DNA from: an uncultured bacterium | GTDB taxonomy: Bacteria; Krumholzibacteriota; Krumholzibacteriia; LZORAL124-64-63 | Reading direction: 5' to 3' | DNA: 62,138 bases | NCBI GenBank assembly: GCA_903912525.1 | Contig: CAIWHK010000014.1 | Span: 1 to 62,138, forward strand | Shown here: piece by piece, positions 43,893 through 46,598 of the stretch | Position numbering within the stretch: the first letter of the stretch is position 1 | Layout: each line of letters starts with the position of its first letter | Program-made: the position numbers and the translations under genes | The notes under the pieces: generated by a model | What the model was told of the DNA's origin: nothing | What the model saw: only the letters and a program-made list of their open reading frames with translations | Databases searched by the model: none

Positions 43893-44720
43893 TCAACGAC
43901 CGAGGACCGGCCGCGCACCCCTGCCGTGGGCCACCAACTCCATGATCTCGACCCGGACCCGTGCCGGAGGCGGCCGCAGACGGCCCCCGGGGCGGTCCAG
44001 GGACGAGTCGGCGCGCACCCGCTCGGTGGCGTAGGCCAGGCCCAGGAAGGGCAGGTCGGGGTTCGTCGCGGCCGTCAGTTCCCGGGTCGTCACCTGGCGG
44101 AGGTTGCCGGCAGGCAGGGACACCGTCTGGGTGTCGGCGGCCGCCATCACCGACTGGTCGCAGAGGTATTGCACGCCCCCGACGACCCGCGTGGTCGCCT
44201 GGCCGGCCGTCACGACCGCCGCCAGGAAGTCCTCGCGGAAGGAATCGGCCACCAGGGGGTCCTCGCGCAGCTGGGTCGCCGACATCTCGGTCACCCGGCC
44301 GCCGGTCCACTGCCGGGCGCCCAGCACGTGGTCCAGCAGGTTGCCGGTGCGCGTGAGCACCTTGCGGGACAGCCGCAACTGCAGGCCCTCGCCCGGCACC
44401 GGCACCAGGCGCCCGCCGGGTTCCTCGCTGAGCGGCAGCACCTCGACGACCCAGGCCTGGTCGTCGGTGCCCGCCGCACGGTCGAGGCAGGCGACACGCG
44501 TCAGGCTCTGCTCCTGCTTCCCGCCGGCCGTGACCTGGAAGCGGTAGTCGGCCCAGTCACCCTCGGTCAGCCGCAACGGCACGTTGGGCTGGCGCCAGAG
44601 CGTGAAAACATCGAGGGCGCGGACCGGCCGCACCCCCGACGTCACGAGCAGGACAGCCAGGGTGATGGCGCGCGCGGCGCCACCAGCCCTAGTGCTTGAT
44701 CTTCTCCCAGTAGGTCGCAT
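43893..44720 (-). CDS. Secreted protein of unknown function
   Basis: 275 residues if started at ATG 44720; family not recognised. Arg-rich N-terminus and a hydrophobic stretch (about 17-33, AITLAVLLVTSGVRPVRA) make a signal peptide. The mature part is beta-rich with two Cys (about residues 78 and 187). The ATG overlaps the cytochrome stop (44689) by 32 bases, so translation is probably coupled. No good ribosome binding site is visible. Given its position it may serve the cytochrome in the envelope, which is inference. Confidence 0.65.
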   Translation of the reverse strand: MRPTGRRSSTRAGGAARAITLAVLLVTSGVRPVRALDVFTLWRQPNVPLRLTEGDWADYRFQVTAGGKQEQSLTRVACLDRAAGTDDQAWVVEVLPLSEEPGGRLVPVPGEGLQLRLSRKVLTRTGNLLDHVLGARQWTGGRVTEMSATQLREDPLVADSFREDFLAAVVTAGQATTRVVGGVQYLCDQSVMAAADTQTVSLPAGNLRQVTTRELTAATNPDLPFLGLAYATERVRADSSLDRPGGRLRPPPARVRVEIMELVAHGRGARPVLGR

Positions 44721-46056
44721 AGTCGAACTCGGGGCTGTTGGCCTTGTCGTGGCAGGTCACGCACGAATTGCGCGCCTGCAACCGCCACTTGCCGTCGCGG
44801 GCGTGCGATGTGCCGTAGCTGTGGCACGCCTCGCACTGCACGTTCACCAGGCTGTTGAACGGGCGCTCGTCCGAGTAGCCGTTCTTGTACTGGTAGCCCG
44901 TCGTGTGGCAAACCAGGCAATCGGGCTCGGTGCTCTGGCCATCGCCGCGCAGGCTCGTGAAAGCCCGCCGGTGGCCCGACTCCGCGTACTTCTTCCAGGC
45001 GCCCTCGTGGCAGTTGAAGCAGGTCCGGTCGCCCAGGAACTGCTCCTTTTCCGAACCGTACACGCGCGGGTACGAGGCACGCTTGGCGTCCTTGAACGCC
45101 GACAGGTCGGTCTTGAACTTCTCGACCTTGGCCAACATCTCGGCGTCGTCCGCCATCTTCTCGTCGAAGTCGATCATGCCGACATCGATCGCCATCACGC
45201 GCCCGGTCTGCACCTCGATGAAGAGGTCGGCCTTGCCGATGAACCGGCCCTCGTAGGACGAACCGAACACGGCCGTGTCGTTGATGATGCGCTCGGTCTC
45301 GATGTTCCGGAACGTGTGGCCGACGACGCAGATGTCGACGCCCTTGAGATCCTTGAGCAGCGTCTCGGTGCCCGTCTCGCCCAGGTGGGACAACAGCACG
45401 ACCGACTCGCACTCCTTGCGCAGGCGCGGCAGCAGTTCGTTCAGCGTCGCGGCCGGGTCGTCCACCTTGAACAGGCCGTCGCCGCCGGTCAGCGTCATGA
45501 TCTGCTCTGCCGGGTCGAGCACGCTGGTGATGCCGTACTTGACGCCGCCCCGCTCGACGATCCGGTACGGGGGCAGCAGCAACGCGCCGGTCTTCGCGTC
45601 GCGCACGTTGGCGTTGACGAAAGGCAGGCTGTTCTTCGTCATCATCTCGCGCAGAAAATCGACTCCGTAGTTCAGGTCCTGCTCGCCGAGACCGATCCCG
45701 TCGAGCCCGAGCGTGCCGAGCATCTCGCACAGGAAGCGCGTCTGCTCACGTTCGTTCTGGTTGCGCGGCCCGAACACGTCACCCGCGTCGACCTGCAACA
45801 GCGACTTGTTCTCCTGCCACACCTTGTCCATAAAGGCAGCCCGCCGGGCCAGCCCACCACGCTGGTGGGTTTTTCAGCCACAGGGCTCGATCTTGCCCTT
45901 GATGTCGCTCAGGTAGAGCAGGCTGATGTTCTTCCAATCCCGGTGCGGCCCCGGTGCGGCCTTGGGAGGCGTCCCGGCGCCGGCCGCGAACGCGGCAGCG
46001 GCGGCGAGCATCAACCCCGCGCCCACCAGTGCGAGCCAACCCTTCTTCGGGTGCAT
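44689..46056 (-). CDS. Multiheme cytochrome c with metallophosphoesterase-like domain; predicted selenoprotein
   Basis: 455 residues if the UGA at 45874-45876 (codon 61) is read as selenocysteine. A signal peptide (about 1-28) is followed by ISLLYLSDIKGKIEPCG, then Sec, then KTHQRGGLARRAAFMDKVW and a UshA/5'-nucleotidase-like domain (VDAGDVFG, LLSHLGETGTE, VVGHTF). The C-terminal part has four CxxCH heme sites (CFNCH, CLVCH, CEACH, CVTCH). Relatives have a Cys at the position of Sec, in a conserved P-C-G-[CU]-K motif. I recall the Geobacter ExtKL selenite/tellurite-operon cytochrome as such a split-annotated selenoprotein, but I cannot verify that here. ATG at 46056 has AGAGG at 9 bases; without Sec the gene would be called as two fragments. 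Confidence 0.78.
45837..45869 (-). promoter_or_regulatory. Candidate bacterial SECIS hairpins after the UGA codon
   Basis: On the minus strand, four bases after UGA comes CCCACCA-GCG-TGGTGGG (45853-45869, 7-bp perfect stem, 3-base loop), directly followed by TGGCCC-GGC-GGGCTG (45837-45851, 6-bp stem including two G-U pairs) whose loop starts 28 bases past the UGA and begins with G. Bacterial SECIS elements typically have the apical loop 16-37 bases after UGA with a G in its first two bases, so the second hairpin fits better. Confidence 0.5.
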
Positions 46057-46304: not shown

Positions 46305-46598
46305 CTATTTGTCGATCCGGTCCTTCAGGCTCTTGCCGGCCGAGAAAGCCGGGTAGTTGGCGCTCGGGATGATGATCTCGTCGCCGGTCTGGGGATTGCG
46401 CCCTGTCCGCTTCTTGCGGCGGCGCCGCTCGAAAGTCCCAAATCCGGTGATCTGCACCCTGTCGCCCTTGGCCACGGCGTTGGCAATGATGCCTTCGCGC
46501 GGGGCGGTGGAGAACAGGGCGTCGACGGTGCGGCGCGCGGCCGCCACGCTCGTACCGGTGCGTCGGGCCACTTCTTCGATGAGCTCAGTCTTGTTCAT
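46305..46598 (-). CDS. HU/IHF family DNA-binding protein
   Basis: 97 residues. MNKTELIEEVARRTGTSVAAA and VQITGFGTFERRRRKKRTGRNP, with the arm tip GRNPQTGDEIIIP and the intercalating Pro, are the HU/IHF signature. A bacterial nucleoid protein that bends DNA. The arm is rich in Arg. ATG at 46598 with a GGGGG site about 8 bases upstream. Confidence 0.93.
   Translation of the reverse strand: MNKTELIEEVARRTGTSVAAARRTVDALFSTAPREGIIANAVAKGDRVQITGFGTFERRRRKKRTGRNPQTGDEIIIPSANYPAFSAGKSLKDRIDK

Follow-up and report, generated by a model that had tools for sequence, protein, structure and literature searches.

A predicted UshA-like selenoprotein with a tetraheme cytochrome domain in Krumholzibacteriia

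The UshA-like selenoprotein family and the locus studied

Selenoproteins related to UshA have been on record since a 2008 ocean survey, in which the family was entered as COG0737 UshA-like with the motif CxU (PMC2398784), and they are also included in reviews of 2022 and 2026 (PMC9312934 and PMC13188914); the available passages of these three papers give no function for the family. The selenocysteine predicted by the initial annotation of the locus described here is thus right but not new, since the selenoprotein family is already catalogued as NF041198 with its PCGU motif, and the finding is both correct and ordinary for the field.

The window, that is, the whole 62,138-nucleotide stretch of DNA analysed, is contig 14 of a 4.29-Mb assembly (97.75% complete). 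On its minus strand, at 44689..46056, lies a gene for an UshA-like/tetraheme protein of 455 aa with Sec61, the terminal stop being included in the coordinates, as defined by translation with TGA as U and by full-length orthologues. Translation of 46056-44689 in this way gives a single 455-aa frame with U61, followed by a stop, and places the one TGA at codon 61 (45876-45874) exactly where the initial annotation had put it. The codon stands in the context TGT GGC TGA (C-G-U), within the motif P-C-G-U-K. Under table 11 the gene is split into ORFs of 89 aa and 380 aa, and a stop at the UGA would leave only a 60-residue fragment; the full-length reading is therefore confirmed for a gene that ordinary gene calling breaks at the UGA. 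The proposal that a signal peptide, a phosphoesterase-like domain and four CxxCH sites share one frame also held, as judged from the N-terminal helix, the domain matches and the CxxCH sites. The signal peptide or N-terminal hydrophobic helix covers about residues 1-25 (45982..46056, minus strand), of which residues 6-25 are helical in the AlphaFold2 model.

Among NCBIfam models the best match is NF041198, 'UshA-like (seleno)protein' (UshA_like_PCGU), with 3e-77 and 260.2 bits, 15 bits short of its curated cutoff of 275 bits, which is passed by 14 of 80 genomes from the phylum. Among those above it are orthologues that match over the full length with about 60% identity (279.5 bits in G010 and 288.8 in G066). 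Both halves of the 519-position model are matched (positions 21-268 and about 350-519), and the PCG[U/C] motif stands before GGLARR as in the model. The window protein is thus an orthologue of the passing members that falls just outside the automatic naming threshold. We consider it very probable that the UGA is read as selenocysteine and that the protein belongs to the UshA-like selenoprotein family of the NF041198 kind.

The gene has an HU/IHF-type DNA-binding protein as its upstream neighbour (46305..46598, minus strand, PF00216), and eight distant loci have the same gene order, LptD-like, HU, selenoprotein, the name LptD-like coming from reading of the sequence with no model search behind it. 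The other neighbours, an exonuclease-domain protein and a secreted protein without assigned family, likewise keep their order; the conserved secreted neighbour of 275 aa (43893-44720, minus strand) had no match in Pfam. Neighbouring genes gave no functional or substrate clue. The gene for this predicted Sec/heme protein holds a fixed position throughout the class, beside LptD-like and HU genes.

The phosphoesterase-like and tetraheme domains

The region of about residues 41-284 (45205..45936, minus strand) is a 5'-nucleotidase/SoxB-like, degenerate metallophosphoesterase domain, as indicated by NF041198 positions 21-268, by PDB matches and by Foldseek matches to 2z1a, 3ive and CD73. The AlphaFold2 model of the protein has a mean pLDDT of 87.8, and its Foldseek matches to 5'-nucleotidases have E values of about 1e-21 to 1e-23; the similarity to SoxB and cytochrome c554 was found by sequence, that to 5'-nucleotidases both by sequence and by the PDB and Foldseek comparisons, and these sequence matches confirm the presence of both domains. 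When aligned to the Thermus 5'-nucleotidase, the protein retains D51, D93, H224 and H247 and has K53, E125, Q126 and F249 where H, N, H and H are usual, so that the full dinuclear-metal and catalytic set (DxH, GD, GNH(E/D), H, GHxH) is not present in the window protein. In a 42-row alignment the invariant positions include G60, U/C61, G67, G68, R71 and N150; the constancy of U/C61 contrasts with the variation at positions 53, 125, 126 and 249.

The cytochrome c554-like tetraheme domain occupies about residues 341-455 (44692..45036, minus strand), with CxxCH at 346, 380, 408 and 432, and is supported by PF13435 (3e-11), by the c-554 structure 1bvb and by column counts. All four CxxCH sites, the number expected of a c-type tetraheme cytochrome, are invariant in 35 members, and the tetraheme members have further invariant His residues at 362, 418 and 455, the latter being the last residue. 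Since the four hemes are matched by just three spare His that are conserved, one heme would be without a conserved His as sixth ligand, which may parallel the situation in cytochrome c554.

Because the metal ligands are degenerate while U/C61 is invariant, we infer a heme-linked Cys-Gly-Sec redox enzyme. The product would be an exported UshA-like selenoprotein of a Candidatus Krumholzibacteriia-type bacterium, in which the Cys-Gly-Sec motif is kept in the loop after the first metal-ligand strand of a 5'-nucleotidase/SoxB-like fold that has lost parts of its metal and catalytic set, and to which the c554-like domain is fused C-terminally. Electrons would pass between the hemes and the Cys59/Sec61 pair, and this pair may act in the former phosphoesterase pocket to reduce or oxidise a small substrate of the periplasm. 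Such a periplasmic oxidoreductase is suggested by the retained C-x-U, the lost phosphoesterase residues and the fused heme wire, and we give it slightly less than an even chance of being right. Electron transfer, as proposed by the initial annotation, is plausible, whereas the selenite/tellurite role proposed along with it found no specific support.

The main competitor keeps the selenocysteine and disputes the reaction: the protein would still be a hydrolase, either nucleotidase-like or a SoxB-like thiosulfohydrolase, with Sec acting as metal ligand or substrate carrier and the hemes serving another step. The similarity to SoxB and 5'-nucleotidases speaks for it, as does the retention of D51, D93, H224 and H247, each in 29 of 35 tetraheme members; however, the canonical H of DxH is replaced by K, R or another residue, the N of GNH is mostly E, and the catalytic H and the last H are variable, and we regard hydrolysis as unlikely. 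Strict retention of U/C together with loss of metal ligands predicts redox chemistry rather than hydrolysis. Returning to the oxidoreductase, it is possible, although we lean slightly against so broad a claim, that the hydrolytic site has been lost and the phosphoesterase fold turned into a heme-wired selenoenzyme with Cys-Gly-Sec as a new active site, carrying out periplasmic redox chemistry in most of one phylum.

Decoding of UGA codon 61

One TGA inside the matching frame was found in all 22 other searched genomes of the same family and in most others of the class. It lies at exactly codon 61 in 33 loci read in detail, with L038 as an additional locus, and wider sampling of the same column gave at least 44 distinct Sec loci (TGA) and 14 Cys loci, so that the cysteine expected in relatives by the initial annotation is seen, as CGC in the 14 loci. 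Relatives read at this column have only TGA or, where the homologues are diverged, a codon for Cys, with neither deletion nor frameshift; every close orthologue has the TGA, and it is kept by orthologues down to about 30% identity. A UGA that aligns with Cys in homologues and is conserved as UGA is the pattern used to recognise bacterial selenoproteins.

Of the 14 Cys loci, two (L088 and L089) carry the tetraheme tail; the remaining Cys forms are heme-less, about 330 aa long and mostly SCGC. The genomes of the two tetraheme Cys forms (SCGC in L088), G075 and G077, still have selA, and loss of the Sec machinery was for this reason rejected as the cause of the Sec-to-Cys exchange. Heme-less SCGC paralogues of about 330 aa with a lipoprotein-like N-terminus (L059, L062, L063, L066, L070, L075 and others) are frequent in two of the families within the class. 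An in-frame TAG in the homologues L075 and L085 was considered as pyrrolysine and rejected, the TAG being the terminal stop. One Sec form has PAGU (L103 of G042, 958-2334), with the partner Cys replaced by Ala and Sec retained, which suggests that Sec alone may be essential.

A search of the assembly for selA, selB, selC and selD found selA (449 bits), selB (319 bits, above cutoff), selD (353 bits) and tRNA-Sec (one match above cutoff, 67.5 bits; anticodon UCA according to ARAGORN). The selD gene (L010, G000:C49:3567-4481) has an in-frame TGA of its own, in the SGU motif, and so likewise codes for a selenoprotein, and selA was detected in 78 of the 80 genomes of the phylum. Very probably the UGA at codon 61 is decoded as selenocysteine by the SelA, SelB, SelD and tRNA-Sec of the cell, with a SECIS hairpin just downstream directing this decoding.

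Such a hairpin of bacterial type lies at 45837..45851 (minus strand), with UGGCCC as 5' arm (45851-45846), GGC as loop (45845-45843) and GGGCUG as 3' arm (45842-45837), the loop beginning 29 nt past the UGA (28 nt between). The bSECIS model, as outlined in the available part of PMC13188914, has a loop of 3-9 nt, a stem of 4-16 bp, a G in the first two loop positions and a distance of 16-37 nt from the UGA, and the window hairpin, with 6 bp, the loop GGC and 28 nt, agrees with it. A loop of GGA or GGC is kept behind the UGA across the family. Over nine pairs and 30 distinct sequences, 91.5% of the cells are paired, against 34-56% in slid versions, two-sided changes occur in 20 cells and four of the nine pairs, and none of 500 shuffles equalled the hairpin in percentage of paired cells or in covariation score. 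Because the hairpin shares codons with the conserved GGLARRA, its conservation is partly protein-driven, a point addressed by recoding and Cys controls: six or more contiguous pairs are present in 42 of the 44 Sec loci and in none of the 14 Cys loci (0-2 pairs), and synonymous recodings that preserve the amino acids reach at least six pairs in 18%. Within the gene, excess codon identity peaks around codons 57-72, and Arg72 is AGG in 22 of 35 cases, although AGG accounts for 73 of 1013 Arg codons.

The two Sec loci without the standard 6-bp triloop hairpin are L038 and L048; in L038 a possible alternative stem of 5 bp (CGGGG/UCCCG, loop CGGUCUG) was read by eye and is unlike the GGA/GGC triloop. 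A genus-specific second hairpin right after the UGA, CCCACCA-GCG-UGGUGGG, was not accepted as the principal SECIS, since only the later GGCCC-GGN-GGGCC hairpin persists in distant orthologues. An Rfam search of the window returned nothing, and SECIS_1 did not match it, the controls being equally silent.

That the UGA is a true stop, in a gene cut short or decayed to a pseudogene, or that it is a TGT/TGC misread in sequencing, is highly improbable. A UGA is normally a stop, and the folding energy of the hairpin region in this single genome is ordinary compared with synonymous recodings (z -0.08), so that the support for the SECIS rests on the family and not on one sequence. Against a stop or an error, however, the same codon is TGA in independent genomes, by which orthologues this explanation is already refuted, the hairpin covaries, the Sec machinery is complete, and the sequence 3' of the UGA shows 61 synonymous versus 26 replacement differences relative to L022, a pattern of purifying selection. 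The depth to which the TGA is conserved and the SECIS-like hairpin behind it argue that the open frame through the UGA is not due to chance. Recoding of the UGA to Trp or another residue (a reassignment like that of codes 4/25), or readthrough without Sec, would also leave the frame open and is the least probable explanation of all, given that this is the sole UGA within 455 codons and lies on the invariant Cys/Sec column, that the genes for Sec decoding are in the genome, that the hairpin accompanies UGA versions only, and that no in-frame UGA at Trp columns was seen among the genes examined. Selenocysteine at codon 61 thus agrees with the machinery, the conserved TGA, the Cys homologues and the covarying hairpin, as the initial annotation had predicted.

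Comparison with known systems

The window protein has the PCGU motif, the phosphoesterase-like part and the cytochrome part in common with NF041198, the model itself already including the cytochrome part, and it differs from what is described in its lineage, Krumholzibacteriia, which is not named for the family in the available passages of PMC2398784, PMC9312934 and PMC13188914. The UshA-like (seleno)protein family 2 (NF049981) has a related fold, but its motif is CxxU instead of CxU, and the score of 35.5 bits is far under its cutoff of 140. The multiheme selenoprotein ExtKL (NF040886) is likewise a selenoprotein with c-type hemes, according to the available part of PMC13188914, and its model gave no match to the window protein in the NCBIfam profile search.

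The tetraheme C-terminal domain is shared with cytochrome c554 (PF13435; PDB 1bvb), whereas in the window protein it is fused to an UshA-like domain and ends in an invariant His. Similarly, the fold is common to the SoxB thiosulfohydrolase and the UshA 5'-nucleotidases, from which the window protein differs in the partial replacement of metal and catalytic residues, in its predicted selenocysteine and in the fused hemes.
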